Positions 8,728 to 41,161 of a DNA stretch of 41,161 nt are shown piece by piece; the stretch's first letter is position 1, and every line of letters starts with the position of its first letter. A model generated the notes under the pieces. It ran no database searches, was not told the origin of the DNA, and worked only from the letters and a program-made list of their open reading frames with translations. The DNA comes from Phycisphaerae bacterium. GTDB taxonomy: Bacteria > Planctomycetota > Phycisphaerae > JAAYCJ01. The stretch is from contig JAAYCJ010000334.1 in the NCBI GenBank assembly GCA_012729815.1, positions 1 to 41,161 on the forward strand. Direction: 5' to 3'. A program made the translations under genes and the position numbers.

Positions 8728-8754
8728 GATTGATGCTCCTTATGATTACTTAGG

Positions 8755-9105
8755 TTATTGGTTGCTGCTTTTCTTGAAGAAGTCCTGCCGCTGATGGTAA
8801 TAGCCGATCGCGAACATTCCCTGCTGATCGAGCCCCAGATGTGCTGGGAACTCGCTGATCTCGCAGACGATCTCTCCGATCTGCTTGTCTCGGAACCTGC
8901 CGTAGTCGGACTTCTCGATGTGATGTTGGGCGAGTCGCAGAAGCTGGGGAAACACCACACGGGGCGTGGCCGAGGCCGAGCCATAGAACCTGTCCTTGAT
9001 GGTCGTGTTCGCCCCCGGAATCGCGTCCTGCTGAGTCCTCTCCAGCACGGCAAAGAGTCTGCCAAGTAGATAGGCGACGTTTCGGTTCTCCGTGTCAAGC
9101 GACAT
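8755..9105 (-). CDS. cas11c: Cas11c, small subunit from an internal start in cas8c
   Basis: Type I-C systems are known to make Cas11c from an internal start within cas8c. Here an in-frame ATG (codon 448, Met-Ser-Leu-Asp) is preceded by GGAGGTG 3-5 nt upstream, much stronger than chance inside a coding region. A second candidate ATG lies at 9117 (codon 444), immediately after AAGGA. The predicted 116-aa helical product matches the known Cas11c size. It would line the belly of Cascade and stabilise R-loops. The start is inferred from sequence only. Confidence 0.75.
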   Translation of the reverse strand: MSLDTENRNVAYLLGRLFAVLERTQQDAIPGANTTIKDRFYGSASATPRVVFPQLLRLAQHHIEKSDYGRFRDKQIGEIVCEISEFPAHLGLDQQGMFAIGYYHQRQDFFKKSSNQ

Positions 9106-10446: not shown

Positions 10447-11096
10447 CCTTCGACCTCCTTTCCCGGAAACGGCGGGACCGCGATCACCCCGTCGACCATC
10501 TCCGCCCGGAAAAACCGGGCCTCCATGTCGTTGGCGAAGTCGATGTCGTGGAGCATCCAGCCGAGGTCCTGGCGACCCTCAAGCGGCGACGGCGGAAACT
10601 CGCCCTCGACCAACTCAAAGGCGGCCGAGAACTCCCGGCAGCCCAGATACGGCTGGGTAAAGCACTGCCCGTCCCTGGCCCGGCGACTGAACGTATCGAG
10701 ATGCTTGCCGTCGTTTAGGTCGGCGTCGCCCGTGTACTCGAAGTGGGCCTCAATGCCGTAGCAGACGTCCCGCAGGATCATCGCCGCCCGCTGCTGGCGA
10801 TCGTCCTCGATGAACTGCGCCAACGGCGAGGCAGGGTTCTTCATCGCGGCGGTGACGTTCTTGAGCGGGATCTTGCCGGCCACCTCGTTCCGCCTGATGT
10901 TCATGAAGCGGATCGGGCGGAGCACGTGGATCCGGTCGATGACCCACCGGATCGACGGTTTCCAATAGATCGCCTCCACGACGGCCCGCGCCGCCGACGG
11001 GGTCATCACGTCGTAGCTGACCCGTTCGACCTTCATCTCCGGCCGGGTAAAGCAGGCGTAATCGCCCCAGACTTTCAGCTTCACTCCGTAAGGCAT
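10443..11096 (-). CDS. cas5c: Cas5c (Cas5d), crRNA-processing endoribonuclease
   Basis: I-C systems lack Cas6 and use Cas5c to cut the repeat hairpin. No cas6 is seen here. The 217-aa product has the family block [20 protein letters not shown], then [21 protein letters not shown] and [11 protein letters not shown]. Tyr44 in AIYWKP is the probable counterpart of the reported catalytic Tyr in Bacillus halodurans Cas5d (family-based inference). I choose the ATG at 11096 over the GTG at 11111. AAGGA sits 8 nt upstream of the ATG, and homologues start at this MPYG-like position, whereas the GTG merely overlaps the cas3 stop. Confidence 0.96.
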
Positions 11097-11107
11097 AGCA
11101 ATTCCTT

Positions 11108-13312
11108 TCACACGTAGAACGTTTCGGGGTCCGCTTGGTGTAGGTCGCTGCCAAGAAGTCCCAGGTTGTCGTCGTAGTAAGGCTTCGTGCCGATCAGGAC
11201 GGGGAACATGCCGGCCCTAAGCTCGATAGCGCCCGAGGCGAGCAGTCTGTTCCACTCGTTCGGATAGACACTGACTGTATACCTTTGGAGCTTGCGGGCC
11301 AGCGAGGCCGGGTGCTTGCAGTAATCCAAGGCCCATATCTGGGAAACGGCTTCTTCGTCATAGGGGATGATGACCGGCTTGGCCTCGTTTTCGATGAAGC
11401 GGAAGGCTTCGGCCACGGTCTTGAAGGGGAAGTCGCCTTTTCCACAGCCTTCGTGGAGCATGCGAAGTATCCCCTTCTCGTCAAGGCCATCGCCCTTGAC
11501 CCAGTAGTAAAGCCGGAAGTACTTCTCGATGGCCTCCAGGGACAGCACATCATCGGGATGTCGTCCAATCACGGACTCGGCGGCCTGCGCCGTCTGACGG
11601 AAATGACCGGCTGGGATGCCGTTTTCGGGGGTGAAGACAAACACGTCTCCCTTGTTACGCCGACCTTCCCGGTTGCAGCGTCCTGCCGCCTGGGCGATCG
11701 AATCGATGCCGGTCATGGACCGGAAGACCACCGGGAAATCGATGTCCACGCCCGCCTCGATCAGTTGAGTGCTGACCACCCGGCAGGGCCGGCCTTGTTC
11801 CAGACATCGGCGAATCTCCGCCAGCCTGCGGCTGCGATGCACTGGACACATCAGGGCGCTCAGATGGTAGAGGCCCTCGACGCCCTGCATGGCTGTATAG
11901 AGGTCCCTGGCGTGCCGTCGGGTATTCACCACGCACAAAACCTGCGGATAGGCCTTGAGGCTCTCGGCGAGTTCCGCATCGGGAATCCGCGGCAGGACGG
12001 TCACCTGCGTTCGCTTCAGGACCGTCGCCAACCGCTGAGGATCGTCGACAATCTCCCGCACGCCTTCCAGGCCCCGGGCGAAGTCGTGGCGTTTCTGGAT
12101 TGCCGGCTGGGTTGCGCTGCACAGGACGATCGTCGTCTTGTAGGTGGCGGCCAATTCCTTGAGGGCCTCGATGCAAGGCAGCAGCAGCGGCGGAGGAAGG
12201 GTCTGGACCTCATCGAGGATCACCACGCTTTGAGCGATGTTGTGAAGTTTGCGGCACCGACTCGATCGGTTGGCGAAGAGGCTTTCGAAAAACTGCACGT
12301 TGGTGGTGACGATGATCGGGGCGTCCCAGTTCTCAGCGGTCAGGCGCGAGCGATGATCCTCCTCGTCCGGCTCAAAATTGCTGTGATGCTCAAGGACGGC
12401 GTCCGAACCGAGCATTTCGCGGAAGACCTTGGCGTTTTGCTCGATGATGCTGGTGAAGGGAATCACGTAGATGACCCGCCGCAGACCGTGCCGCAGGGCG
12501 TGTTTGAGAGCGAATGCCATGGATGAGAGGGTCTTGCCGCCGCCGGTCGGAACGGTCAGCGAGAATACGCCCATCGGACCGTTCGCCGCTTTGAGGCACT
12601 GAGCCAGGATTGCTTCCCGGTGGCTATCGACCGGCGAAGGGCAGACCCGTTTTTGCTCCCGCAGGCGGCTCAAGTTCGCAAAAAAGACGGGTTCCAGTTC
12701 GGCCAACTCCTTGTACCCCTGCCTGGCCTCCGACCGCTGACCATCGACGAACGTCTCGGTATCGAGAAAGTCGGCATCCACCAGCGTCGAATAGAGCATG
12801 CGAATGAACAGGCTGATCTGCACCCCGGCCCGTTTCGCGTCAGGGACAAACGGCAGTCGCAGCGGCGTTTCAGAAACGGCATTGAGAATCCCACCAGGAC
12901 AGGCGCTGTAGTCGGGAATCTGCTTTTCAAGCCGACTTCGCAAACAGGAATCGGTGGAGTTGCCGTCGGGCAGTCCTCCGTGATGGCCGGCGATCACATA
13001 GGCAAGTGCTTTGCCGAACCCCTTTTCCTGGATTCTCGATGCCGCGTGTTGGGCTCCGGCGGTGGAGTGATCCACTTTCCCAGCCGCCTCGACGTGCGCA
13101 TCCTCTCCCTGGCTCGCGTTAATCCGCTGCTGAAATTCGTATGAGTACTTACCGATGTCGTGCCACAGGCCAGCGAGCCGCCCCCATTCTCCGGAAGAGA
13201 ACGCTTCAGCAAAAGGGGCAGATCGGCTCGCCACCCCGTGCAGATGATCCTCAAGCCTCTGCCAGTGATCCAGATTTGAATCATTTTCGCGACTATGAGC
13301 GTAGAATTCCAT
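11108..13312 (-). CDS. cas3: Cas3, HD nuclease-helicase
   Basis: This 734-aa protein unwinds and degrades invader DNA after Cascade binding. The N-terminal HD domain shows His51-Asp52 (LWHDIGKYS), His82 (DHSTAGAQH) and His110-His111 (AGHHGG). The SF2 helicase core shows Walker A VPTGGGKT (about 254-261), DEVQ (367-370), the SAT motif [19 protein letters not shown] and [10 protein letters not shown]. All key residues are present, so interference should be active. It is the first gene of the operon, 3' of a TATAAT promoter at 13464-13491, with GGAGGG 10 nt upstream of the ATG. Confidence 0.98.
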
Positions 13313-28693: not shown

Positions 28694-28948
28694 CACCCGA
28701 TGCCGGGAACGCCATAGGATGGCACTGGCCTGAACTCCCGCCACCATCCACATCCATCCCGCCCAGCCGCCAGCCGCGCGTCCGATAAAACCGCCGATCC
28801 TGTGCCGCCAAGTCGCAGCCTACCGCACAATCGTTAGGTCTTGATTAAAACGAGTGCTTTTTGTACACTAACAACGGTGGCCGACGATGCCGCAAGGGCT
28901 CGAAGACCATCTAAGGGAGACACGAGGAAGGAGAGCGAGGAGAGAGAG

Positions 28949-29773
28949 ATGAGAAATGTCTTGGTTCGGTTTTTGCCCGCCCTTTTCCTGCTTACCCTCT
29001 GCGCCCACGCCGCGGTGATCGAACTGCCGGAGGTGATCGAACTGGCGGACTTGAACTCCACAGCGTCCATCGACACAACCGGCGGCCGGGGCATGTTCAA
29101 CTGGACCGTCAACGGCGTCGACCATCTGCAACAGCAGTGGTTCTGGATGCGGACGGGCCAGCAGCGAGAGTACGCCCTCGATGCCTTTGGCGGACCCGTC
29201 GCCGCGGTCGTCTCCGACCGCGATCTCAACGGCCACAACGACATGCTGTTCCTCAGGTACGACCACGGCCTCTACACGGTCGAGGTCTCCTACCTGCTGA
29301 CCGGCGGCGAGGTCGGCAGCCGCGTCTCGGATATGGCTGAGACGATCAAGATCACAAGCCGGTCCCAGCAGCCCCTGGATCTGCGCTTCTTCCAGTACAC
29401 CAACCTCAACCTCAGCGGCGCCGCCGGCGACGACACCGTCGAAGTGATCAACGCCAGCGCGGTCCAGCAACAGGATCCCTTCGCCGTCTTCACCGAAACC
29501 GTCGTCGCCCCGGATCCGAGCCGCCATGAAGTCAACGCCTGGCCCGCCACCCTCGACAAGCTCGAAGACGACCTCCCCTCAATCCTGGATAACGGCGGCG
29601 GACCGCTCACCGGCGACGCCACTTGGGCCTTCCAGTGGGACTTCGTCCTCGGACACTATGGCGATACCTTCCTCATCAGCAAGGACAAGCTTGTCACCAC
29701 TCCCGAACCCGCCACTCTCGCCGTCCTCGCCTGCGGCGTCCTCCCGCTCATGCGCCGCCGGCGAAGATCCTAA
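28949..29773 (+). CDS. PEP-CTERM sorting-domain protein
   Basis: From ATG 28949 (GAGGAG just upstream) the 274-aa product starts with a signal peptide (MRNVLVRFLPALFLLTLCAHA) and ends with TTPEPATLAVLACGVLPLM plus an Arg cluster. This is a PEP-CTERM signal: Pro-Glu-Pro, transmembrane helix, basic tail. Such proteins are processed by an exosortase in Gram-negative bacteria, so the organism should encode one elsewhere. The body is Asp/Asn-rich and beta-like (VNGVDHLQQQWFWM, ITSRSQQPLDLRFFQYTNLN), with no enzyme motif. It is probably secreted or surface material. Confidence 0.9.
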   Translation: MRNVLVRFLPALFLLTLCAHAAVIELPEVIELADLNSTASIDTTGGRGMFNWTVNGVDHLQQQWFWMRTGQQREYALDAFGGPVAAVVSDRDLNGHNDMLFLRYDHGLYTVEVSYLLTGGEVGSRVSDMAETIKITSRSQQPLDLRFFQYTNLNLSGAAGDDTVEVINASAVQQQDPFAVFTETVVAPDPSRHEVNAWPATLDKLEDDLPSILDNGGGPLTGDATWAFQWDFVLGHYGDTFLISKDKLVTTPEPATLAVLACGVLPLMRRRRRS

Positions 29774-29869: not shown

Positions 29870-30247
29870 TCAGACGATCTTCCGCGCGCCGGAGTACGCC
29901 TCTTCCACCTTGAGCGCCGCCGCTGCGTGACCGGGATGCTTCGCCGGATTCCACTGCTTCATCGCGTCGAACACCTCGCCGCGGCGATGATATTCCAGCG
30001 TCCCTTTCACCTGATACGCCTTGCCGTCCTTCGTGATGAACAGCAATGACCCCTTGCCGCCGCGAAGGATGTTCCTCCGGGTCTTGTCGAAATAGTTGTC
30101 CGCCACCACCAACCGGTCCTCCCCGAACACGCCGACGCACGTGGCGTAAATAGCGTTGGGCACGCCGCCTTCATCCACCGTGGCCAACACCACCGGACCC
30201 TCGCGATCCTCCCACGCCTCACGCACCTCGCTTGGCAATGACGCCAT
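29870..30247 (-). CDS. PNPOx-like split-barrel flavin-binding protein
   Basis: The 125-aa product resembles the pyridoxamine-phosphate-oxidase-like fold. EDREGPVVLATVDEGGVPN is followed by ATCVGVFGEDRLVVADN, FDKTRRNILRGGKGSLLFIT and YQVKGTLEYHRRGEVFDAM. The basic ARKIV end is common in this family. The ATG at 30247 has AAAGGAG 6-7 nt upstream and is preferred over the TTG at 30253. It may bind FMN or F420-like cofactor. It is the last gene of the long minus-strand run, 12 bp after the Nudix gene. Confidence 0.82.
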   Translation of the reverse strand: MASLPSEVREAWEDREGPVVLATVDEGGVPNAIYATCVGVFGEDRLVVADNYFDKTRRNILRGGKGSLLFITKDGKAYQVKGTLEYHRRGEVFDAMKQWNPAKHPGHAAAALKVEEAYSGARKIV

Positions 30248-30259
30248 CGGCAACTCCTT

Positions 30260-30748
30260 TCATTCCGTATCGCTTCCATCCGAAAGCAAAAACTGTCCTC
30301 GATATCGCCGAAAATCGGCCAGGGTCCCAACGTGGATTGCCGCCAGATTCTCCGGTAAGCCGTCCACCGGCCAGAACCGCACCTGCGACCCTTCAATCCC
30401 GTCCGCGACCGGCCGCCCCGTCCACTCGCGAACGACAAAGGCCACCGCAAACGCCTGCACCTGATCGCCGTTGGGATATGAAAACCGCTGCCTTCGGCCC
30501 GAGTACAAAGCCATCGGCTCCGCCCGCCGAACCCTCAGGCCCGTCTCCTCCAGCACCTCGCGATCAAGGGCCTCCAACGCGGTCTCATCCAACTCAACGC
30601 AGCCGCCCGGCAACCCCCAGCAATCCCCGTCCGTCCGCCTCTGCAAAAGCACCTCGTTCCGATCGTTGACGATGACCGCGCGAACCCCCGGCAGCAGCAG
30701 CCGCCGCACGCCCACCAACGCCCGAAGCTCCTGCGCGTACGTCGCCAA
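30260..30748 (-). CDS. Nudix hydrolase
   Basis: The Nudix box GGCVELDETALEALDREVLEETGL is complete apart from natural variants of GX5EX7REUXEEXGU, so it should hydrolyse a nucleoside diphosphate-linked compound. FSYPNGDQVQAFAVAFVVREW and QVRFWPVDGLPENL follow. I choose TTG 30748 (GGAGG 9 nt upstream, product 162 aa), giving ATYAQELRALVG, a common N-terminus for this subgroup. An alternative start a few codons earlier is possible. It overlaps or abuts the MBL gene stop at 30753. Confidence 0.85.
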   Translation of the reverse strand: MATYAQELRALVGVRRLLLPGVRAVIVNDRNEVLLQRRTDGDCWGLPGGCVELDETALEALDREVLEETGLRVRRAEPMALYSGRRQRFSYPNGDQVQAFAVAFVVREWTGRPVADGIEGSQVRFWPVDGLPENLAAIHVGTLADFRRYRGQFLLSDGSDTE

Positions 30749-30752
30749 CGCG

Positions 30753-31589
30753 TCAATCCTCCAACGCCAACACCGTGCCCACCGGACACGCCGAGCACCC
30801 GCCCGGAAACTCCCGCCACAACCACGCCGCCGCCTCAAAACCCGTGCAGTGACACGGCATCAACCGCCGAACGCCAAGCCGCCCAAGCTCCTCAACCGTC
30901 CGGGCCATCCGCCTCGCGCCCGCCGACAGCAGGTGCATCCCGCCCATCACCGTGTCGATCGGCCGATCGCCCGTCAACTCCCGGATATAGCGCAGCGTGT
31001 TGATCACCCCGGCATGTGCGCAGCCGAGAACCACCACCGTGCCCGACGCCGTCTCAATAAACGCCGACTGATCGTCCACCAGCAAATCGGGATCCGTACA
31101 CGCCGAATCAGTGAAAAACGCCCCGCCGGTATCCTCGAAATCCGTCACTCTCGGCACCGGTCCGGTCAGACGAAGACCCTCCAACACTTCCGTCGGTCCT
31201 TCCGTCCAAACCAGTTCCGCACGTTCACGCAGGTCCGGATCCTCCCGCGACGGCATGCCGATGTCGCGGCCGCTGCCGTCCGGATTCCGCCCGTACTTGC
31301 CCGCGAACGCCACCGGATGGGCAAACACCCGCACGCGACCCGCCGCCTTCAGCACGCCAACCAAACCGCCCGTATGGTCGTAATGCCCATGACTCAGAAC
31401 GATCGCATCGGCCGTCTTCAGCCGAACGCCCAGCTTTCGCGCATTGCCCTCCAGAACATGCCCCTGACCCGTGTCGAACAAAACCCGCTTCGACCCCAAC
31501 TCGATCCAGAACGACAGACCATGCTCACCCAGCAGGCCGCGGCCGCCCGCCGTGTTCTCCACCAGAACCGTAACGCGACGCTCAGCCAC
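30753..31589 (-). CDS. MBL-fold metallohydrolase
   Basis: The 278-aa protein carries the SHGHYDHTGG metal motif (HxHxDH), VVVLGCAHAGVINTLRYI and PCHCTGFEA, which mark the MBL subgroup often annotated as RFA-P synthase-like (7,8-dihydropterin-linked). No signal peptide is present. It overlaps the preceding PLP-enzyme gene by 8 nt and feeds into the Nudix gene, so translation is coupled. The substrate cannot be told from sequence. Confidence 0.88.
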   Translation of the reverse strand: MAERRVTVLVENTAGGRGLLGEHGLSFWIELGSKRVLFDTGQGHVLEGNARKLGVRLKTADAIVLSHGHYDHTGGLVGVLKAAGRVRVFAHPVAFAGKYGRNPDGSGRDIGMPSREDPDLRERAELVWTEGPTEVLEGLRLTGPVPRVTDFEDTGGAFFTDSACTDPDLLVDDQSAFIETASGTVVVLGCAHAGVINTLRYIRELTGDRPIDTVMGGMHLLSAGARRMARTVEELGRLGVRRLMPCHCTGFEAAAWLWREFPGGCSACPVGTVLALED

Positions 31590-32712
31590 CCGCCTTCACT
31601 CCCTGCGCCACACACGCCAATGCCTGACGAATGTCCTTGACCAGCCGTTCCGGCGGATCGATCCCGATCGACAGCCGAACCGTGTTCTTCCGAACCCCGA
31701 ACGTCGTCCGCCGCTCCGGCGGCAGATACAGCATCGTCGTCAGATACGGAATGCAGATCAGCGACTCCGTCGCCCCCAGACTCACCGCGTGATAAATGTT
31801 CTGCAACGCCGCCACGAACCGCTTGGCGTCCTCCTCGTCCTCGCCCACGTCGAACGCCAGCATCCCGCCGAACCCCCGACGCATCTGGCGCGCCGCCACC
31901 GCGTGGTTCGCGTGACCCTCCAGCCCGGGATACGACAGCCCCGAAATCTTCGGCTGACCCGCCAGAAACTCCGCCACCGCCTGCGCCGCCCGCGCCATCG
32001 CCTCCGCCCGCAGCTCGAACGTCTTGAGCCCGCGATCCAGCAGAAACGCCGAGTACGCGTCCAGCGTCGTCCCGATCGCCTGCCGCGTAAACCACAGCCG
32101 GTTGTAGTCCTCCTTCGACCCCGCGATCGCACCCGCCATCAGATCGTTGTGGCCGCCCAGCGCCTTCGTCGCGCTGTGCACCACCAGATCCGCCCCCAAC
32201 GCCAGCGGATTCTGATGGTACGGCGTCGCGAACGTGTTGTCCACCACCACCATCGCGCCCACCGCCGACGCCGCCTTCCGAACCGCCGCCACGTCGATCA
32301 CCTTGCACAGCGGATTCGTCGGCGTCTCCAGAAAAATCATCCGCGTGTTCGACCGAAGATGCTCGCCGATCCGCACCGCGTCATCGGCGTCCACCCACGT
32401 GATCTCCACCCCCATCCGCTCCAAAATCAGCGACACCTTGTAGTTCGCCCCGTACGTGTCGTGAAAAATCAACAGATGGTCGCCCGCCTTCAGGTACGTC
32501 AAATACACCATCGTGCACGCCGCCATCCCGCTCGTGCACACCACGCAGTCCTCCGCCCCCTCCAGCGCGGCGATCTTCCGCTCCACCTCGCGAACCGTCG
32601 GATTGTCGTCCCGATGATACGTATACCCGTCGATCTCCCCGTCGGTGATCTGCCGAAGCACCTCGAACGAAAGGTACTCGTAGTTCACCGCGTTCACGAT
32701 CGGCGTCACCAT
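31582..32712 (-). CDS. Cys/Met-metabolism PLP enzyme (cystathionine gamma-synthase-like)
   Basis: The 376-aa product belongs to the trans-sulfuration PLP family. YTYHRDDNPTVREVERKIAALEG, VCTSGMAACT, and the Lys of VHSATKALGGHNDLMAG (Schiff base) are diagnostic. It could be a gamma-synthase, O-acetylhomoserine sulfhydrylase or gamma-lyase. The N-terminus is short: in-frame codons upstream of ATG 32712 remain family-like (SIDSVRNRP) for nine codons until a stop but contain no start. It lies in the operon of the HydG-like gene and could supply or remove a sulfur amino acid, an inference. Confidence 0.88.
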   Translation of the reverse strand: MVTPIVNAVNYEYLSFEVLRQITDGEIDGYTYHRDDNPTVREVERKIAALEGAEDCVVCTSGMAACTMVYLTYLKAGDHLLIFHDTYGANYKVSLILERMGVEITWVDADDAVRIGEHLRSNTRMIFLETPTNPLCKVIDVAAVRKAASAVGAMVVVDNTFATPYHQNPLALGADLVVHSATKALGGHNDLMAGAIAGSKEDYNRLWFTRQAIGTTLDAYSAFLLDRGLKTFELRAEAMARAAQAVAEFLAGQPKISGLSYPGLEGHANHAVAARQMRRGFGGMLAFDVGEDEEDAKRFVAALQNIYHAVSLGATESLICIPYLTTMLYLPPERRTTFGVRKNTVRLSIGIDPPERLVKDIRQALACVAQGVKAGG

Positions 32713-32751
32713 CGGCCGGTTGCGTACGGAGTCAATGGATCAGGAGCCATA

Positions 32752-33084
32752 TCACGTGTTTCCTTTTTCATCAATACACCCGTCGCCCGCGGGCCCGGCG
32801 GCTTCCCTGTCCGCCAACTCCCGCTCCACGCGACGCACCGTCGCCTCCAGATCGTACCGCAACGCCTCACGCGCTTCCACCGTCAACTCGCCGTGCCACA
32901 GCAGAACCAGACTCTCCGAGAGTCGCAACGGCTCGGGCCGGTCGGCCTCCATCGGACCATAGCCCGCCAGAAAGTGGCGGCGAGGCCCCAGAACCTGCGC
33001 AAAATACGCCCGACGAAGACCCCACGCCTCGCACAGCCTCCGGCATTCAACCTCCAACGCCCGTTTCGTCGTCTCCGAAATCAT
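32752..33084 (-). CDS. Unknown 110-aa protein downstream of hydG-like gene
   Basis: I do not recognise this protein. The start is ATG 33084, whose frame begins right after the stop of the HydG-like gene (33086). The longer open frame upstream is its shadow. It is mostly helical: MISETTKRALEVECRRLCEA, FAQVLGPRRHFLAGYGPM, LRLSESLVLLWHG and a coiled LRYDLEATVRRVERELADRE. Two Cys lie in the first 20-residue helix region and one near the C-terminus. Tight coupling suggests a partner or substrate carrier of the HydG-like enzyme. Confidence 0.6.
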   Translation of the reverse strand: MISETTKRALEVECRRLCEAWGLRRAYFAQVLGPRRHFLAGYGPMEADRPEPLRLSESLVLLWHGELTVEAREALRYDLEATVRRVERELADREAAGPAGDGCIDEKGNT

Positions 33085-33085
33085 T

Positions 33086-34588
33086 TCAAAAATGCAGATC
33101 CCTCCGCGATTCACGCTCCATCCGCTCCAGATGCGCCCGAACCTTCGGAGCCAGCGCGGACGCGTTCGCCTCCAGCCATTCCAGGTACCGCGGAATGATC
33201 GTCTCCCGCCCGATCCGCCGAACCGGCTCCGTGGCGTAGTCCGCCAGATACTCCTCAAACGTCAGAATCCCGTTGGCGACGCAGAAATTCTTCACCGTCG
33301 CGTGCTTCGCCAACGGCATGAAGTTCGCCCCCGTCCGGCCCTCGCGATACCCAGCCGTGCAGAACGACGGCAGATACCCTTCCCGGCACAAATCAAGAAT
33401 GAAATCGTCCAGGCTGCGGGTGTCCGCCAGCATGAACTGCTGCCGGTCCGGAACGTGCTCGCGATCCATCTCCGCGTAGCCGCCCACCGCGATCCGCGAA
33501 CCGGCGTCCATCTGCGAAACCCCGCCCTGGCGAATCACCTCCCGCCGCAGCTCCGGCCGCTCCTGCGCCGTCAGAATCGATCCCGTGTACGGGCACATCA
33601 GCCGGATGACCGCCACGATCTTGCGAAAATCATCGTCGCTGACCCGGTGGGGCGACCCGGTGGCGATCGGCGTGTTGAGCGCCGGCTCCAGCCGAGGATA
33701 CGAAATGGTGTGCGGGCCCACCCCGAACGCCTGCTCCAACGCCATCGCGTGATACAACAATCCCAGCAGCTCGAACCGCCAGTCGTACAAACCGAACAAA
33801 ACCCCCAACGCCACGTCGTCGATGCCCGCCTCCTGCGCGCGGTGCAGCGAGAAAACACGCCAGTCAAACTCCCCCTTCAGCGTCCCGGCCGGATGCAGCT
33901 TCCGGTACGTCGGGCGATGGTACGTCTCCTGGAACACCTGGTACGTCCCGATCCCCACCGAACGAACCGCCTTGTACTCCTCCACGAACAACGGCGCCGC
34001 GTTCACGTTCGCCCGGCGAATCTCTCCCGGTCCGCTCTTGACCTGATACGCCGCCTCCACCGTGCGGCACATGTACTCGCAGTCGCTCGCCGGATGCTCG
34101 CCGTAGACCATGATCAGCCGCTTGTGACCCGCCCGCACCAGCGCCGTCAACTCCGCCCGCAGCTCCGCCATGTCCAGCGTGCGCCTCTGAACGTCCCTGT
34201 TGCCGCTGCGGAACCCGCAATACGCGCAGTTGTTGACGCACGGGCTCGATACGTACAACGGGGCAAACAGAACGATACGATTGCCGTACACCGTCCGCTT
34301 GATCCAGTCCGCCGTCTCGAAAACCGCCTGCCAGAGCTGCGGATCCTGCACGTTCGCCAGCACGGCCACGTCCTCGGGGCTCAGCAAGGCCCCGCTCGTC
34401 GCGTTCTGCCGGGCCTTCGCCAGAATGTCCTCCACCGTCTTCGGCTCGCTTGACCGATGACGAACCAGCAACTCCTCAATCGCGGCCTCGTCGATGAAGT
34501 CCTCGTACGACCGCCGATCCTCCCATCGCCGGACCCGCTCAAGCCGCTCTTCCTGCCACGTCCTCTCGCCGGCTTCCAACGTGCTCAT
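33086..34588 (-). CDS. HydG-like radical SAM protein with altered C-terminal cluster motif
   Basis: The 500-aa protein aligns by eye over its length with HydG, the tyrosine lyase that builds Fe(CO)2CN for [FeFe]-hydrogenase. It has SPCVNNCAYCGF (C117, C121, C124), ETYHRPTYRKLHPAGTLKG, GVLFGLYDWRFELLGLLYHA and SQMDAGSRIAVGGY. At the auxiliary-cluster site, canonical CTAC is CTAG here: C410, Gly413, C436 with exact C-x2-?-x22-C spacing. The codon is GGG, two changes from a Cys codon. ATG 34588 overlaps the ASKHA stop as TGATG. No hydrogenase, hydE or hydF is in the window, so a different product is likely. Confidence 0.85.
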   Translation of the reverse strand: MSTLEAGERTWQEERLERVRRWEDRRSYEDFIDEAAIEELLVRHRSSEPKTVEDILAKARQNATSGALLSPEDVAVLANVQDPQLWQAVFETADWIKRTVYGNRIVLFAPLYVSSPCVNNCAYCGFRSGNRDVQRRTLDMAELRAELTALVRAGHKRLIMVYGEHPASDCEYMCRTVEAAYQVKSGPGEIRRANVNAAPLFVEEYKAVRSVGIGTYQVFQETYHRPTYRKLHPAGTLKGEFDWRVFSLHRAQEAGIDDVALGVLFGLYDWRFELLGLLYHAMALEQAFGVGPHTISYPRLEPALNTPIATGSPHRVSDDDFRKIVAVIRLMCPYTGSILTAQERPELRREVIRQGGVSQMDAGSRIAVGGYAEMDREHVPDRQQFMLADTRSLDDFILDLCREGYLPSFCTAGYREGRTGANFMPLAKHATVKNFCVANGILTFEEYLADYATEPVRRIGRETIIPRYLEWLEANASALAPKVRAHLERMERESRRDLHF

Positions 34589-36462
34589 CACTGCTCCGTC
34601 TCTCCCGCATGCTCCCCTTCCGGAAAAACCATCGCTTCCGCGAATTCCATCTGAAAGTCCATGTCCACCGACAACTCCACGTGACGCGTCCGCCGCGCCA
34701 GCTCCTCCGCGTGACGCCGGGCGCTCACCGACAGCAGCACCCAACGCGCTCCCGCCAGCGAAACGTTCCCCACGTAGTGAATCCGCCGATGGTCGATCTC
34801 CTGCGGAATCAGCCCGATCCGCTGCGCCTGGTTTCGCCGGATGAAACTCCCGAACCCGCCCGCGATCAGCACCGATTTAAGGTCCGACGCCTTTAATCCC
34901 GCCTGACGCAACAAAATCGAAATCCCCGCCCGAATCGCCCCGCAGCCCAACTGCAGCTCGCGAACGTCCCGCTGCGTCAACGTGATCGCCCGGTGGCTCG
35001 TCCCGATCTCCGGTTCGGCCAGCACAAACTCCGTCCGCCCGTCACCGTCCTGCTGCACCCGACCGGCCAGCGAGGCCGACAGACCCGCCGGCAGCTCATC
35101 CGCCGGCCGCAGACGCCCCTCCGGCGAGACGATCCCCTGACGCAGCAACTCCGCCGCCAGATCGATCAGCCCGCTTCCGCAGACGCCCGTCGGCGCCGCG
35201 TTCCCGATCACGCCCAACTGAACGTCGCCGTCCAGCACCACCTTCTCGATCGCACCGCGAGTCCCGCGCATCCCGCAACTGATCCGCGCCCCCTCAAACG
35301 CCGGACCCGCCGCCGTCGATGCCGCCAGCAACTGCCCGTCGTGCATCAATACGATCTCGCCGTTCGTGCCGATGTCCACCATCAGCACCGGCCCTTCCTG
35401 CGCGTCGATCTGAGTCGCCAGCATGCCCGCCACCGTATCGCCGCCCACGAACCCCCCGATCACCGGAAACACGTACACCGAACCGTGCGGATTGATCGGC
35501 ACCTCCAGATCGCGCGCCGATAGCAGCAGACCGCGGGCGTACGCCGGTGCGAACGGCACCTCGCCCAACTGCGACGGGTCCACCCCGCACAGCAGGTGCT
35601 GCATCGTCGTGTTGCCGGCAAACGCCGCCTCGTAAATGTGCTGCGGATCCACCCCCGACTCCTGGCTCAACGCCTCGATCATCCGGCCCGCCTCCTCGAT
35701 CACCGCCCGCCGCAACTCGTCCAGGCAGTGATGGCACGAAGCCGAATGCTTGATCCGCGACAGCACGTCATCCCCGAAACTCACCTGCGGATTCATCCGC
35801 GACACCGTCGCCACCTCCGCGCCCGATCCCAGATCCAGCAGCGACGCCACCATCGTCGTCGTCCCGATGTCGAACGCGACGCCGAAACACTGCCCCGTCG
35901 TATCGCCCGCCTCGAAATCGACCAACTGACCGTCCGAGAGCACCGCCGTACCCTTGAAACCCTGATCGCGAAGCCGCCGCGGCGCCAACCGCAGCATCGC
36001 CAGCCCAACCTTGAACGGACCCGTCGCACCCTCGAGCCGAAGCAGGTCCGGCACGTCGTCCTCCAACGTCGGCGGCGTCAGCTCCACGTACACCTTGCGA
36101 ATCGGAGGAAGAAGCTCCCGCGGCCCGCCCACCGTCGAACTCCCCAGAATCTGATGGTCGCCGCCGAACAGCGACGCCGACGGAACCTCGATCACCATGT
36201 CCCCTCGCACCCGATTCTGACACGCCAGCCGCCAACCGCCGTCCAGCTCCTTGGCGGAAAAAACCCGCCGATCCGCCTGCGTCGGCGCCTCCGCCCCGCG
36301 TACCACCTGCACGCGGCACTTCCCGCACGTCCCAACCCCGCCGCACGGCGTGTCAACGATCAATCCCGCCCCGGCCGCCGCCTCCAACAAAGTCGTCTCC
36401 GGCAAAACCGACACGCTCCGACCCTGCGGCTGAAATGTCACTCTATGCTGACTGCTCGACAT
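34588..36462 (-). CDS. Ferredoxin-ASKHA (RACo/DUF4445-like) activator
   Basis: This 624-aa protein has an N-terminal [2Fe-2S] ferredoxin domain (C40, C46, C49, C81; DTPCGGVGTCGKC and LACQ), a linker, and an ASKHA ATPase-fold domain (FDIGTTTMVASL, DIGTNGEIVLMHDGQ, GVCGSGLIDLAAELL, LIAGGFGSFI). RACo/RamA-type proteins use ATP to drive electrons onto corrinoid or other low-potential cofactors. The corrinoid partner is not in view. It overlaps ykoF-like by 20 nt and the HydG-like gene by 1 nt, so it is probably an electron-delivery activator for this operon's target. Confidence 0.92.
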   Translation of the reverse strand: MSSSQHRVTFQPQGRSVSVLPETTLLEAAAGAGLIVDTPCGGVGTCGKCRVQVVRGAEAPTQADRRVFSAKELDGGWRLACQNRVRGDMVIEVPSASLFGGDHQILGSSTVGGPRELLPPIRKVYVELTPPTLEDDVPDLLRLEGATGPFKVGLAMLRLAPRRLRDQGFKGTAVLSDGQLVDFEAGDTTGQCFGVAFDIGTTTMVASLLDLGSGAEVATVSRMNPQVSFGDDVLSRIKHSASCHHCLDELRRAVIEEAGRMIEALSQESGVDPQHIYEAAFAGNTTMQHLLCGVDPSQLGEVPFAPAYARGLLLSARDLEVPINPHGSVYVFPVIGGFVGGDTVAGMLATQIDAQEGPVLMVDIGTNGEIVLMHDGQLLAASTAAGPAFEGARISCGMRGTRGAIEKVVLDGDVQLGVIGNAAPTGVCGSGLIDLAAELLRQGIVSPEGRLRPADELPAGLSASLAGRVQQDGDGRTEFVLAEPEIGTSHRAITLTQRDVRELQLGCGAIRAGISILLRQAGLKASDLKSVLIAGGFGSFIRRNQAQRIGLIPQEIDHRRIHYVGNVSLAGARWVLLSVSARRHAEELARRTRHVELSVDMDFQMEFAEAMVFPEGEHAGETEQ

Positions 36463-36727
36463 CGCTGTTTCCTTCCGACGGCCCGATCGACGGGCACGCG
36501 TTTGAAGCCTTCAAAACCAGAACAACCTCGTGGTCATGGGCAACGCCCTTGAACGCGTTGCCGACCGCCGCCAGTACCTCATCCACCCCACCCGCCAGCG
36601 TCGTGCTCATCGCGCCCTCACGCACCGTCAAATCGTCCCCCTTCAGCTCGTCCACGAAACGGCGAATCACCCCGCCCACCGCATCGGTGCGAAGGGGATA
36701 CAGACTCATCTCAGCCTGCACCTTCAT
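36443..36727 (-). CDS. YkoF/MTH1187-like small binding protein
   Basis: The 94-aa product contains VQAEMSLYPLRTDAVGGVIRRF, VREGAMSTTLAGGVDEV and a VVLVLKASNACP strand. These match the ferredoxin-like fold of YkoF and MTH1187-type thiamine/hydroxymethylpyrimidine-binding proteins. ATGA overlap with the methyltransferase gene gives coupled translation. In this operon it could bind a pyrimidine, a thiamine-like or another small intermediate. Beyond the fold I cannot assign a ligand. Confidence 0.7.
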   Translation of the reverse strand: MKVQAEMSLYPLRTDAVGGVIRRFVDELKGDDLTVREGAMSTTLAGGVDEVLAAVGNAFKGVAHDHEVVLVLKASNACPSIGPSEGNSDVEQSA

Positions 36728-37380
36728 CGTCGGACCTCCGCGACAATTAGTGGCCCTTCAAGCCCGTTCCGCGACCGCCGGTCCCGCCCGCAACTGGCCG
36801 ACGCAACCATCCGAACCCCTCCATACGGCGACAACAGCCGTCGCAACTCCGCCGGAGCAAACAGACGACCGAAAACGTACGGCGACTTCCCCTTCGCCAG
36901 CCGACGCCGATTCAACGGCGATAGCCGATTCAATACCCCAACCACCAAACTCCCGCCCGGTCGCACGCATCGGGCCATCTCCCGCACCGCCAACGCCGGA
37001 TCGCCCACGAACTCCAGTGTGGCCATCGCCGCCGACACGTCGAACGCCCCGTCCTCAAACGGCAGCGCGCACGCGTCACCAACCTCAAACCGACACCCGC
37101 CAGCCGATCCTCGCGCCACCGCGATCATCTCCGCCGACACGTCCACGCCAACCACCTCGTAACCCATCGACGCAAAAAACGAACACCAATGCCCGGTTCC
37201 GCAGCCGACCTCCAACAGCCGCTGACCGGGCCGCGCCCGCTGCAGCAGATGCCGCACATCCCACTTCTGCACCCGGTCGTACGCTCGACCAGCCGGCGTA
37301 TCGTACCACCGATCGTATTCGCGCGCCAACACGCCAAAATCGAACAACGTTGAGCAAGACCGAGCCTTCATCTCTGGCAT
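36724..37380 (-). CDS. Class I SAM-dependent methyltransferase
   Basis: The 218-aa product has LLEVGCGTGHWCSFFASMGY (SAM-binding motif I), VVGVDVSAEMIAVARG and EFVGDPALAVREMARCVRPGGSLVVGVLN, a UbiE/methyltransferase-11 type. The ATG at 37380 shares its A with the stop of the upstream ATPase (TGATG), so I use that rather than the longer frame to 37422. The target could be a thiol, cofactor or protein; nothing in the sequence tells which. Confidence 0.92.
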   Translation of the reverse strand: MPEMKARSCSTLFDFGVLAREYDRWYDTPAGRAYDRVQKWDVRHLLQRARPGQRLLEVGCGTGHWCSFFASMGYEVVGVDVSAEMIAVARGSAGGCRFEVGDACALPFEDGAFDVSAAMATLEFVGDPALAVREMARCVRPGGSLVVGVLNRLSPLNRRRLAKGKSPYVFGRLFAPAELRRLLSPYGGVRMVASASCGRDRRSRNGLEGPLIVAEVRR

Positions 37381-38294
37381 CACGCCTTCTCGCCGACCAG
37401 CGCATCCTTCACCGCACTCCACACCGCCCGGATATCGGCGGCGCAGCCGTCCTCCTGGTACTCCACCACCGCCTGCCCGGCGATCTGGGCCTGCGTGACC
37501 GCCCGATCGTACCGAACCCAGCCCGCTGACTCAATCCCCCGCTCCCGCGCCGCCCGCTCAATCTCCTCGGCCACCTCCGGGTTCAAATCCCACTTGTTCA
37601 CGCACACCAACGCCGCAACGCCGAAGTGCCGCGTCAAATCCGCCACCCGATTCATGTCGTGCAAACCGCTCAGCGTCGGCTCCGTCACCACCAGCACCAT
37701 ATCCACCCCGCCGATCGACGCGATCACCGGACATCCGATCCCCGGCGACCCGTCGATGATGATCAAATCCCGCTTCCGCTCCTCCGCCACCTCCCGAGCC
37801 TGCTTGCGAACCGTGCTCACCAGCTTGCCCGAATTCTCCTCCGCCACCCCCAGCTTCGCGTGGACCATCGGCCCGAAACGCGTCTCCGATACGTACCACT
37901 CGCCGTTGACCGCCGGACCGAAATCGATCGCCTTCGTCGGACAAAACCACGCACAGACCCCGCAGCCCTCGCACGCCACCGGGTCGATCCGATACGTCCG
38001 ACCGATCACGTCGTTGGCCGGACCGTCAAACTCCACCGCTCCAAACCGGCACAGATCCAGACACTTTCCGCACCCGGCGCACTCCTCCGCGATCACCCGC
38101 GCACGCTTCCCGCCCGAAAACGGCTCGCAACGCCGGACCGTCGGCGACAGCACCAAGTGCAGGTCCGCTGCGTCCACGTCGCAGTCCGCCAGAACCGCTC
38201 CCTCAGCCAACGCCGCGAACGACGCCACCACCGACGTCTTACCCGTCCCGCCCTTGCCGCTGATCACCACCAGTTCCTTCACCTTCGATTCCAT
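37380..38294 (-). CDS. MinD/Mrp-type ATPase with inserted 2[4Fe-4S] ferredoxin
   Basis: The 304-aa protein has the deviant Walker A SGKGGTGKTSV (about 12-21). Two complete 4-Cys clusters follow (C72, C75, C78, C82 and C108, C111, C114, C118). A MinD-like IIIDGSPGIGCPVIASI then VLVVTEPTLSGLHDM follows. Fe-S-containing paralogous ATPase pairs of this kind occur in Desulfovibrio Orp complexes and cofactor-maturation loci. Longer in-frame upstream codons are non-coding, so the start is ATG 38294. Its sister is at 38706-39560. Confidence 0.95.
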   Translation of the reverse strand: MESKVKELVVISGKGGTGKTSVVASFAALAEGAVLADCDVDAADLHLVLSPTVRRCEPFSGGKRARVIAEECAGCGKCLDLCRFGAVEFDGPANDVIGRTYRIDPVACEGCGVCAWFCPTKAIDFGPAVNGEWYVSETRFGPMVHAKLGVAEENSGKLVSTVRKQAREVAEERKRDLIIIDGSPGIGCPVIASIGGVDMVLVVTEPTLSGLHDMNRVADLTRHFGVAALVCVNKWDLNPEVAEEIERAARERGIESAGWVRYDRAVTQAQIAGQAVVEYQEDGCAADIRAVWSAVKDALVGEKA

Positions 38295-38362
38295 CGGCTC
38301 GCTATCCTTCGCACAATGCGTTGTCAAACATCCTGCGCCCGCCTGGACCAACACCTCAGCGG

Positions 38363-38713
38363 CTACAGAAAACCATCGAAAAACTCCTCGCGACACCAGC
38401 ACCAGTAACCCCACGCGCTGTCCCGCTGATGCTTCTCGTCCGTCGTGCCCTCCGACGAAACGCCCACGCGACCCAACTCGTCGCACGCCTCGCCGCGACT
38501 CAAAAAACGATACGCGCAATGAATCAGCCGAAACCGCTCCGCCGCCCCCTTATCCTGAGGATTCGCGTCCGGATGGTGCGCCAGACTCGCCCGCCGATAC
38601 GCCTGACGGATCGCCGCCGCGTCGGCCTCCTCCGAAACACCCAGAACGGCACGCGCCTTCCGCTCACGCTCACGCAACCGCTCGATGTCCGCCTGCCAGT
38701 CCTTCTCAGCCAC
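38363..38713 (-). CDS. Small J-domain (DnaJ-like) protein
   Basis: From GTG 38713, overlapping the ATPase stop by a few bases, the product is 116 aa. KARAVLGVSEEADAAAIRQAYR, then HHPDANPQDKGAAERFRLIHCAYRFL form a J-domain with its HPD motif. A Cys-bearing tail reads WGYWCWCREEF. HscB-type J proteins stimulate Hsp70 in Fe-S cluster assembly. Between two Fe-S ATPases this is probably a dedicated co-chaperone, which is inference. The other frame in track coordinates to 38869 is not used. Confidence 0.85.
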   Translation of the reverse strand: MAEKDWQADIERLRERERKARAVLGVSEEADAAAIRQAYRRASLAHHPDANPQDKGAAERFRLIHCAYRFLSRGEACDELGRVGVSSEGTTDEKHQRDSAWGYWCWCREEFFDGFL

Positions 38714-39560
38714 GACCGACCGTCCTTTCCTCCAGCCGATCCAGCAAGCCCTCGTACAGCCGCCGGTACTCCGGCAACGCGTCGCACACCATCTCCCCGC
38801 GCGAATACGCCTCCGCGATCCGCCGGTCGTCCGGAATCTCAGCCAGGACCTCAATCCCCTCCGCCGCACAGTACACGCTCGTCTGCGCGTCCCCGCTGTC
38901 CGACCGGTTGATCACCACCCCGAACGGCCGCTCCAACGCCCGAACCATCTCCACCGCCAGCTTCAAATCCCACAGACCGAACGGCGTCGGCTCCGTCACC
39001 AGCACCGCGAAATCCGCGTCCCGAATCGTCTCGATCACCGGACACGACGTCCCCGGCGGCGCGTCGAAAATCACCACCTCCGCCGACGGACCCGCCTGCT
39101 TCACCTGCCGAATCAACGGCGGACTCATCGCCTCCCCCACGTTCAGTACGCCGTGCACGAACGCCACCCCGTCCGATCTCCCGATCGCCAACTGACCGAT
39201 CTCCCGATTCCCCGGACTGATCGCGCCCGCCTTGCACACCAGCCAGCATCCGGCGCAGCCGTGGCACAGCTCCGGAAACACCAGCGGCTTGCCGCCCAAA
39301 CACACAATCGCGCTGTACTGGCAGATCTTCGCGCACTGCCCGCACGAAGTGCACCGATCCGCCTCCACCTCGGGAATCTGCCGATGCACCAACCGCGTCT
39401 CCTCGATCGACGGCTTCAAAAAAACGTGCCCGTTCGGCTCCTCCACATCGCAGTCGATATACGCCGCCGATCGGCCGCGAGACGACACCGTCTTCGCCAG
39501 GTTCGTCGCCACCGTCGTCTTGCCCGTCCCGCCTTTTCCGCTCGCAATCGCTATCTTCAT
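38706..39560 (-). CDS. MinD/Mrp-type ATPase with inserted 2[4Fe-4S] ferredoxin (sister)
   Basis: The 284-aa protein starts MKIAIASGKGGTGKTTVATN (deviant Walker A). Two 4-Cys clusters follow: C70, C73, C76, C80 and C99, C102, C105, C109. FDAPPGTSCPVIETI is the Walker B/switch region. It pairs with the paralogue at 37380-38294. The two probably form a heterodimer that loads or reduces a metallocluster. The ferredoxin gene lies 21 bp upstream. Start ATG 39560. Confidence 0.95.
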   Translation of the reverse strand: MKIAIASGKGGTGKTTVATNLAKTVSSRGRSAAYIDCDVEEPNGHVFLKPSIEETRLVHRQIPEVEADRCTSCGQCAKICQYSAIVCLGGKPLVFPELCHGCAGCWLVCKAGAISPGNREIGQLAIGRSDGVAFVHGVLNVGEAMSPPLIRQVKQAGPSAEVVIFDAPPGTSCPVIETIRDADFAVLVTEPTPFGLWDLKLAVEMVRALERPFGVVINRSDSGDAQTSVYCAAEGIEVLAEIPDDRRIAEAYSRGEMVCDALPEYRRLYEGLLDRLEERTVGRG

Positions 39561-39581
39561 CCCTGCCTTCCATTCAACGCG

Positions 39582-39755
39582 CTACGGCACGCAAATCGCC
39601 TCGTTCGGACACTCATCCACGCACACCGCGCAGCCGGTGCACCGCTCGGCGTCCACCGTCGCCAAACCACCCTCGATGCGGATCGCCTCACGCGGGCATG
39701 CCTCCACGCAAATGCCGCATCCGCTGCATCGCTCGCCGTCAACCTGAACCGCCAT
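39582..39755 (-). CDS. 2[4Fe-4S] ferredoxin
   Basis: The 57-aa product has two CxxCxxCxxxC motifs, CSGCGICVEACP (Cys10, 13, 16, 20) and CTGCAVCVDECP (Cys39, 42, 45, 49), a clostridial-type electron carrier. AAGGAGAG precedes the ATG by 9 nt. It precedes the Fe-S ATPases and presumably donates low-potential electrons to this system. Confidence 0.96.
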   Translation of the reverse strand: MAVQVDGERCSGCGICVEACPREAIRIEGGLATVDAERCTGCAVCVDECPNEAICVP

Positions 39756-39835
39756 CTGGCGTTCTCTCCTTATAGTATTCTATCCAATCGCCGCTGCGAC
39801 TTCCCCCGCTCCGTCAAACGCGGGCGGTGACGCGG

Positions 39836-40246
39836 TCATAGCGGCGAATCCGGCGTCTCCCGACGCAATCCCAGCATGTCCCGGACCTTCTCCACCAGCA
39901 CCTCGCACGAAACCGGCTTGTCCAGAAACGCATCCACCGGCAGATGCTGCTGGTCGGGAACGAAACGATACGGCGGCTGCTTGACGTCGTGCACCGCACT
40001 GAGCATCAGGATCGGCAGGTCGCGCATCTCGAGCTCCTCCCGAATCCGCCGCGCCGCCTCGAAACCCTCGTACTCGCTGGGCATCAAAACGTCCAGAATC
40101 ACCAGGTCCGCCCCCTCCGACCGAAGCCGCTCCACCCCCTCGTCGGCGTCCGCCGCCTCGCCCACCTCAAATCCCGCCTGCTCCAGCGGAGCCCGGCAGA
40201 TCGTCCGGCAATCCGAATCGTCGTCGATAATCAGTATTCTCGGCAT
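39836..40246 (-). CDS. Stand-alone response-regulator receiver protein
   Basis: The 136-aa protein is a CheY-like receiver with acidic D8-D9, phosphoacceptor D52 (LVILDVLMPS), a switch Ser83, and K110 in FLDKPVS. No output domain follows, so it acts through protein contacts or an orphan kinase elsewhere. It lies between the oxidoreductase and ferredoxin genes, with 80 bp before the latter. A regulatory link to the Fe-S operon is inference. Confidence 0.93.
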   Translation of the reverse strand: MPRILIIDDDSDCRTICRAPLEQAGFEVGEAADADEGVERLRSEGADLVILDVLMPSEYEGFEAARRIREELEMRDLPILMLSAVHDVKQPPYRFVPDQQHLPVDAFLDKPVSCEVLVEKVRDMLGLRRETPDSPL

Positions 40247-40273
40247 GGAATCTCCTCTCCGGGACCAAGCCCG

Positions 40274-41161
40274 TCACGCCATGGCGGCGATCGCCGCCTC
40301 CGCTGCGTTCACAAACTGGTACGCGATCGGCGACGCCGTCAACGCCGGGTGCGTCCCCGTCTGGAACATGGCGATGTCCTCAGCCGTCATCCGACGCTGA
40401 ACGCACGCGCTGATCGTATTGATCACCTCGCCCGCCGCCTTGTCCCCCATCACCTGGCCGCCCAGAATAACCCCCGTCCGCTTCTCGAACACCAGTTTCA
40501 CCTTCATCGCCTGCATGCCCGGCATCCCGCCGGGATGGCGGTTCGGCGCCTCCGCCGTCCCCACCACGTACCGGTACCCGTGCCGCGCCGCCAGGGCCTC
40601 CGTCAACCCCGCCGTCGCGAATGCCGTCTCTCCGATCGCCGTCGACCAGACGCCCACCGTCCCGATATTCTCCCGCCGCGTGCCAAACAGATTCGCCCCC
40701 GCGATCCGCGCCTCCGCCGTCGCGATCGACGCCAGCTTCAGCGGCGACGGGCCGCCGCCGAAAAACGAACTCTTCTCCGCGCAATCGCCGCACGCGTAAA
40801 TCCGCGGGTCGGTCGTCCGCATCGTCCGGTCCACCGCGACCCCGCCCGTCGCGCCCAGCCGAAGCCCAGCGTCCCTCGCCAACCGCACGTCCGCCGTCGC
40901 CCCCGCCCCCACGATCACCGCCTGAGCCGGCAGCACCCGCCCGTCCACCAGCTCAACCCCCTCAACCCGATCCTTGCCCACCACCCGCTTGACCTTCACG
41001 CTCGTCACCGTCGCGATCCCGCGCTCGTGCAGCAACGCCTCCGCCCGGGTGCAGAACTCCTCGTCGTACGCCAGCATCAGACAGTGCGGCAGCATCTCCA
41101 CCACCGTCACTTTCGCCTTCAGACTCTTGCGGCACTCATCGGCGAACTCCACCCCGATAAA
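40274..41161 (-). CDS. FAD/NAD(P)-dependent disulfide-type oxidoreductase (5' end cut)
   Basis: The last 296 codons are seen; the window edge lies within the second dinucleotide-binding strand (FIGVEFADE). KVTVVEMLPHCLMLAYDEEF continues that NAD-binding domain. VDRTMRTTDPRIYACGDCAE is the typical FAD-binding C-terminal motif. The C-terminal domain (LVFEKRTGVILGGQVMGD) is the dimerisation domain of class-I/CoA-disulfide or NADH-oxidase-like enzymes. It starts outside the window, so the active-site Cys is unseen. It could feed electrons to the ferredoxin. Confidence 0.9.
   Translation of the reverse strand, partial: FIGVEFADECRKSLKAKVTVVEMLPHCLMLAYDEEFCTRAEALLHERGIATVTSVKVKRVVGKDRVEGVELVDGRVLPAQAVIVGAGATADVRLARDAGLRLGATGGVAVDRTMRTTDPRIYACGDCAEKSSFFGGGPSPLKLASIATAEARIAGANLFGTRRENIGTVGVWSTAIGETAFATAGLTEALAARHGYRYVVGTAEAPNRHPGGMPGMQAMKVKLVFEKRTGVILGGQVMGDKAAGEVINTISACVQRRMTAEDIAMFQTGTHPALTASPIAYQFVNAAEAAIAAMA

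Follow-up and report, generated by a model that had tools for sequence, protein, structure and literature searches.

HydG, a known hydrogenase maturase, makes the CO and cyanide of hydrogenase. The ordinary enzyme binds its auxiliary cluster through a CX2CX22C motif, seen in alignments as CTAC...C. Formation of CO requires this C-terminal cluster (PMC3457958), and the Fe(CO)2(CN) synthon forms there (PMC6212873; PMC11736057). The ORP (orange protein) proteins of anaerobes hold a metal cluster and have no settled function. In Desulfovibrio they include Orp3 and Orp4, each with two [4Fe-4S] motifs, the NifX-type Orp8 and Orp9, which is MrpORP; the genes form two divergent sigma-54-dependent operons, and the NifX-type protein holds Mo-Cu (PMC6345978; PMC3897727). 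Here we describe an operon of a Phycisphaerae bacterium in which a HydG paralog is joined to ORP-type genes, an arrangement of which no description was found in the open-access literature, subscription papers not being covered. The stretch of DNA analysed, referred to as the window, is the entire 41,161-nt contig C334 (JAAYCJ010000334.1) of draft genome G000 (GCA_012729815.1; 5.47 Mb, 97% complete).

Seven loci were found to hold HydG proteins of the same group: that of the window and those of six further genomes, from the Planctomycetes-Verrucomicrobia-Chlamydiae (PVC) group (L011/L089), Planctomycetaceae (L012/L092), Hydrogenedentota (L014), Deltaproteobacteria (L016), Sedimentisphaerales (L017/L091) and an unplaced bacterium (L021/L090). 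ORP-type genes were present at all seven loci, and hydE, hydF or hydrogenase genes at none. The opposite was observed for 13 comparison HydG loci (Desulfonauticus-type, Campylobacteraceae, planctomycete and ordinary copies of the same genomes), where hydE, hydF or hydrogenase genes were found at 13/13 and ORP-type genes at 0/13 (Fisher p 1.3e-5 for the split, uncorrected for kinship). The association between this HydG group and ORP-type genes is therefore well supported. A first-pass annotation of the window had read the gene neighbourhood as something other than the hydE-hydF-hydG set. This was borne out: the recurrence in six other genomes speaks against chance co-occurrence, and hydE, hydF or hydrogenase genes are absent beside the locus; the ordinary hydG, the hydE and the [FeFe]-hydrogenase genes of this genome lie elsewhere.

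The HydG paralog matched TIGR03955 over its full length with 432.9 bits (cut-off 312.15). Its AlphaFold model (predicted local distance difference test score, pLDDT, of 92) matched the HydG structure 4wcx with a template modelling (TM) score of 0.97, by target length, and 1.6 A; an intact HydG fold is thus predicted. The radical S-adenosylmethionine (SAM) cysteines of the CxxxCxxC motif, C117, C121 and C124, were invariant in 24 aligned sequences. H280 and, in the auxiliary site, C410 and C436 were also invariant. The paralog therefore shares with HydG (TIGR03955; 4wcx, 4rtb) the full-length sequence, the predicted fold, the CxxxCxxC motif, the histidine and the first and third auxiliary cysteines, but differs from it in the second auxiliary cysteine and in the lack of adjoining hydE, hydF, aspA and hydrogenase genes. 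In place of the three-cysteine motif, all seven members of the group read C410-x-x-G413...C436, that is, CTAGYR where ordinary HydG has CTACYR, with glycine replacing the second auxiliary cysteine at window residue 413.

The seven members were compared with a sister group of four HydG proteins, 65-66% identical to that of the window, which carry CTAC and lie in hydrogenase operons where their context is known. Only four fixed differences were found in about 500 columns, and residue 413 is the sole one at which ordinary HydG and the ORP-type group disagree. The Desulfonauticus/Desulfohalobiaceae-type HydG (L013, L087, L088), with the same 65-66% identity and the same adjoining 110-aa protein, keeps CTAC and sits with hydrogenase and an aspA-type lyase, joined at L087/L088 by hydF. 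Three candidates for a compensating cysteine (C332 in LMC, C401 and C174) were rejected, all being conserved in the CTAC sister group too. Nor is Gly413 a unique mark of the group: a separate group (L023, L034, L042, L043; context in L094-L097) has CTAGYRCGRTG in hydrogenase operons, one of them with hydE and hydF. That group has gained a cysteine two residues further along (CTAGYRC), possibly a migrated ligand of the auxiliary cluster, whereas the ORP-type group has no group-specific new cysteine. A tree joining the two CTAG groups was rejected by the approximately unbiased test (pAU 0.0002).

A possible explanation for these data is that the paralog is a second, redundant HydG still serving [FeFe]-hydrogenase maturation, with the ORP-type genes as its Fe-S supply. 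Such a role would agree with a score above the HydG cut-off, with the modelled fold and with the existence of CTAG-type HydG in hydrogenase operons. It would also agree with genome G392 (L011), which has a hydrogenase-type gene and in which no ordinary hydG was found, and with a D. vulgaris operon for hydrogenase biogenesis that includes a different Mrp protein, DVU2330 (PMC6345978). However, the genome of the window already has an ordinary HydG (492 bits) on contig C302, beside hydE and [FeFe]-hydrogenases, and ordinary hydG was also found in the genomes of L012, L016, L017 and L021; the genome of L014 has a second hydG-type gene, truncated at its end. Given also that none of the seven loci lies near hydE, hydF or hydrogenase genes and that one cluster ligand is gone with no group-specific cysteine replacing it, we consider a redundant maturase unlikely. 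Seven Fe_hyd_lg_C matches were counted in G000 (C302, C46, C183, C215), three being hydrogenase-like proteins that matched far more weakly, and hydF was not located in the G000 stretches read.

This type of HydG appears to be rare and patchy, since HydG-type matches were obtained in 69 of 392 sampled genomes of the phylum and none except the window's own exceeded about 54% identity. Scanning 84,980 genomes with short conserved peptides yielded at least 11 relatives. Sampling of the phylum of G399 was uninformative: the HydG of L021 is frame-broken and fell under the E-value used. The HydG-like gene at L021:9995-11480 consists of two overlapping reading frames, and the break is either real or an assembly error.

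The window operon consists of 15 genes on the - strand, running from 41161 to 29870:

40274-41161, - strand: FAD (flavin adenine dinucleotide)/NAD(P)H oxidoreductase, coenzyme A (CoA)-disulphide-reductase-like, C-terminal part (Pyr_redox_2, Pyr_redox_dim)
39836-40246, - strand: single-domain response-regulator receiver, between the FAD enzyme and ferredoxin genes (PF00072, 69.1 bits)
39582-39755, - strand: 2[4Fe-4S] ferredoxin of 57 aa (Fer4)
38706-39560, - strand: Fd-MinD ATPase 1, Orp3/Orp4-type (CbiA 75 bits, ParA, two Fer4 stretches, KGGTGKTT)
38363-38713, - strand: short J-domain protein with HPD motif (PF00226, 59.3 bits; relatives in L089 and L090)
37380-38291, - strand: Fd-MinD ATPase 2, Orp3/Orp4-type (CbiA and Fer4)
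36724-37380, - strand: class I SAM methyltransferase, Methyltransf_11 (PF08241, 88.7 bits)
36443-36727, - strand: YkoF/MTH1187-like (Thiamine_BP/YkoF) protein (PF01910 and PF07615; relatives in L014, L091 and L090)
34588-36462, - strand: RACo-like ASKHA reductive activator with N-terminal 2Fe-2S domain (PF14574, PF17651, PF17650, PF00111)
33086-34588, - strand: HydG paralog of 500 aa, C410-T-A-G413 where CTAC is usual (TIGR03955, 432.9 bits)
32752-33084, - strand: HydG-associated 110-aa protein, no family (relatives in 8 other loci)
31582-32712, - strand: Cys/Met-type pyridoxal phosphate (PLP) enzyme, gamma-lyase-like (PF01053, 380.5 bits; relatives in L011 and L021)
30753-31589, - strand: MBL-fold metallohydrolase (PF00753, 52.5 bits; relatives in L011 and L012)
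30260-30748, - strand: NUDIX hydrolase (PF00293, 69.4 bits; relative in L092)
29870-30247, - strand: PNPOx-like flavin-binding protein, extending the run below 30260 (PF01243, 52.5 bits)

All the genes named by the first-pass annotation are present on this strand and match the expected families. The receiver, NUDIX and PNPOx-like genes had been missed, that of the NUDIX protein within the range that it gave. Its description of the genes as mostly overlapping was slightly strong: the overlaps are real and occur at 6 of the 14 junctions, the remaining gaps being of 1-80 bp. The appearance of the locus agrees with the cofactor-building operon that it had suggested.

The contig ends within the FAD enzyme gene. 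A genome search using the full-length FAD enzyme of a relative located its N-terminus on the end of contig C249, which shares an exact 127-bp overlap with the end of the window contig. Upstream from the FAD enzyme start, C249 encodes a NifX (Nitro_FeMo-Co) domain (83 bits) fused to a 2[4Fe-4S] ferredoxin, and two DUF5320 genes. MrpORP (Orp9; NF041136, 539 bits, cut-off 450) was found on C346, a contig separate from the window, together with two NifX-type genes besides the domain of MrpORP itself, one more DUF5320-like gene, a 4HBT thioesterase-type gene and, at 8305-9672, a sigma-54 activator divergent from a NifX gene.

Two P-loop ATPases with two [4Fe-4S] motifs each, as in Orp3 and Orp4, are thus encoded at 38706-39560 and 37380-38291, and the NifX/Di-Nase protein (Orp8), MrpORP and the adjacent sigma-54 activator are all found when C249 and C346 are included. 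Since these two contigs supply the NifX, DUF5320, MrpORP and sigma-54 activator genes, the window operon together with C249 and C346 is an expanded ORP-type gene set. The locus had previously been regarded as matching no described system and as lacking a complete Orp set. The ORP framework does fit, through the genes of C249 and C346, and the apparent incompleteness was an artefact of the contig break: the Fd-MinD pair, NifX, MrpORP, DUF5320 and sigma-54 activator genes are all in the genome.

The set resembles the ORP cluster of D. vulgaris (DVU2103-2109) in its pair of P-loop ATPases with two [4Fe-4S] motifs, its NifX-type protein(s), MrpORP and its sigma-54 activator, here divergent from the NifX gene on C346. 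Unlike the D. vulgaris cluster, it is spread over separate contigs and also includes the HydG paralog, the 110-aa protein, the NifX-ferredoxin fusion and the J-domain, methyltransferase, YkoF-like, RACo-like, PLP and MBL proteins; the [2Fe-2S] protein Orp5 was not identified in it, no search aimed at one having been made. A scan for sigma-54 promoters gave no site with two or fewer mismatches upstream of the first C249 gene; one-mismatch sites were found near NifX/DUF5320 genes in L016, L090 and L092.

Among the seven loci, the Fd-MinD pair, DUF5320 and a NifX-type gene were each found at six, a second radical SAM gene at five, a sigma-54 activator, the methyltransferase and the YkoF-like gene at four each and the J-domain gene at three. 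Several of the contigs are short, and absences carry little weight. The RACo, FAD, PLP, MBL, NUDIX and PNPOx genes differ between loci, as would be expected if a core ORP-type set had merely gathered unrelated anaerobic hitch-hikers and HydG had arrived by chance transfer. However, HydG, the Fd-MinD pair, NifX and DUF5320 recur in planctomycete, deltaproteobacterial and Hydrogenedentota genomes, and MrpORP and the second radical SAM gene recur too where the contigs allow. As gene orders differ across the recurring loci, the recurrence calls for repeated selection or for joint transfer of the genes, and such a loose assemblage is very improbable. The second radical SAM protein (L011:6782-7726, with relatives in L012, L016, L017 and L021) belongs to no specific family, and in L011 it has a helix-turn-helix-like tail. 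A membrane protein with HAPFT, HPLHV and PCCTSD motifs is encoded near three of the ORP-type HydG loci (L011:16972-17589, L012:17249-18022, L017:3759-4397); it gave no Pfam match and, for two of the three, no NCBIfam match.

The loss of the cysteine, together with the ORP-type company, hints at a so far undescribed way of making a metal cofactor. The explanation that we favour, tentatively and at somewhat less than even chances, is that a HydG paralog was recruited by an expanded ORP-type system for metal-cluster assembly, and that cyanide made from tyrosine, accompanied or not by CO, feeds the cluster. Electrons from NAD(P)H would pass through the ferredoxins, and possibly the RACo-like protein, to reduce the radical SAM cluster, and the paralog would then split tyrosine into p-cresol and dehydroglycine. 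At the auxiliary site, altered but still with two cysteines and the conserved histidine, dehydroglycine may be converted into cyanide with formate or little CO, and not into the two CO of ordinary HydG. In work of Pagnier et al. from 2016, HydG variants with a defective second cluster reportedly gave cyanide and formate and no CO. The paralog would by analogy be expected to release cyanide and little CO on cleaving tyrosine. The cyanide, or an iron-cyanide unit, would then be transferred to a metal cluster for which the NifX-ferredoxin, Fd-MinD and MrpORP proteins are the carriers, a step that might be driven by the ATPase activity of these proteins together with sulphide or thiol that the PLP and FAD enzymes supply. 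A metal cluster of the NifX-type, Fd-MinD or MrpORP proteins is the most probable acceptor, because these constantly accompany the HydG paralog. We infer the tyrosine lysis, the product mix, the passing of the product to ORP-type carriers and what the cofactor is, the acceptor being drawn from gene order. That loss of the auxiliary ligand has retuned HydG to yield cyanide or an Fe-CN unit with an incomplete CO set, for an undescribed CN/CO-ligated cofactor on ORP-type carriers, is rather doubtful.

Several observations weigh against recruitment of the paralog into ORP-type cluster assembly. RACo and the FAD enzyme were each found at 2/7 loci and the PLP enzyme at 3/7, so parts of the proposed pathway would be optional. 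The loci number only seven, all from uncultured draft genomes, and the counts are not phylogenetically independent. The CTAG group in hydrogenase operons means that the substitution alone is no proof of lost CO synthesis. A single clade of the seven is compatible with the data (pAU 0.33) and is left open by the tree with the motif column masked. The function of ORP is itself unsettled, and a role in cell division has been proposed (PMC6345978).

Alternatively, the auxiliary site may no longer make diatomic ligands, the protein acting as a metal carrier or sensor in an ORP-type complex. The loss of one cluster ligand while the rest are conserved would agree with this, as would the receiver domain in the window operon and the PAS/sigma-54 activators of the relatives. 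Strong conservation of the radical SAM motif, the HydG fold and the other auxiliary-site residues speaks against it, and we regard a carrier or sensor as decidedly unlikely.

The paralog might also stop at dehydroglycine, as ThiH (2-iminoacetate synthase) does, and supply another biosynthesis, for example that of thiazole. The tyrosine-lyase step is common to HydG and ThiH (PMC9046217), the tyrosine-lyase fold is shared, and the operon has a YkoF/thiamine-binding-type protein. In contrast to ThiH itself, however, the match between ThiH and the paralog stops before the C-terminal cluster domain, and no ThiG was found in five of the seven genomes (G000, G393, G397, G398, G399), partial 21-24-bit matches in G000 and G399 being judged unrelated proteins. 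Both genomes with ThiG have a ThiH-scoring gene beside it. Moreover, C410, C436 and H280 are invariant, although a pure dehydroglycine source would not need them. A ThiH-like role is thus quite improbable; synthesis of the thiamine thiazole by the paralog is unlikely, while a use of dehydroglycine other than for thiamine is conceivable.

Had HydG indeed been retuned to supply such a CN/CO-ligated cofactor, biology would use CN/CO ligands on a metal elsewhere than in hydrogenases. The conserved link between HydG and the ORP-type genes would serve both the hydrogenase and the ORP fields: combined with the change at the CO-making site, it predicts that ORP-type clusters are able to carry diatomic ligands and that evolution can tune the auxiliary site of HydG. 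Matches to TIGR03955 annotated as hydrogenase maturase are not always such.

The 110-aa protein gave no Pfam, NCBIfam or PDB profile match, and its assignment as a TM1266-type regulator or a member of another known family was rejected on that ground. It had been noted earlier as an unknown protein of the operon; it is not particular to this system. Proteins of the same family, with the RVYFAQVLGKRRHFLAG motif and an invariant Cys18, adjoin ordinary HydG at L087:11703-11948, L088:9500-9781 and L013:11618-11887. Since it also lies beside ordinary HydG in Desulfohalobiaceae-type hydrogenase operons, the 110-aa protein is an undescribed HydG companion and not an ORP-type part. Its model (pLDDT 89.8) has a fold weakly like GAF/roadblock (best E 0.014).

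The RACo-like protein resembles the RACo/AcsV corrinoid activators in having all four Pfam domains and in its phmmer match to 3zyy (E 4e-108), but it scored 455.8 bits against the AcsV cut-off of 800. Family searches found no corrinoid partner for it among the genes of the window operon, and among the loci it has a relative in L089 only. For the FAD enzyme, the best NCBIfam of the full-length L011 relative was CoA-disulfide reductase, with a score under its cut-off. The start of the PLP enzyme at 32712 is internal and would yield a shortened protein: upstream of it, the L011 and L021 relatives have DPLTPYGNRP, and the window (32712-32770) has the matching residues in another frame, an apparent one-base difference. 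Relatives of the PNPOx-like protein adjoin the HydG-like gene in L011/L089 and L014.

GC skew was about -0.23 to -0.32 over the whole run of genes, compared with -0.08 to +0.06 elsewhere in the window, an expected effect of long coding on one strand. No Rfam match was obtained anywhere in the window. Just past the end of the operon, a gene on the + strand (28841-29773) encodes a protein with a signal peptide and a PEP-CTERM-like C-terminal tail. The first part of the window (1-5600) is a CRISPR array with more than 30 repeats of GTTTCAATCCACGCTCCCGCGAGGGGAGCGAC, followed at 6102-13312 on the - strand by type I-C-like cas genes, recognised by eye only.

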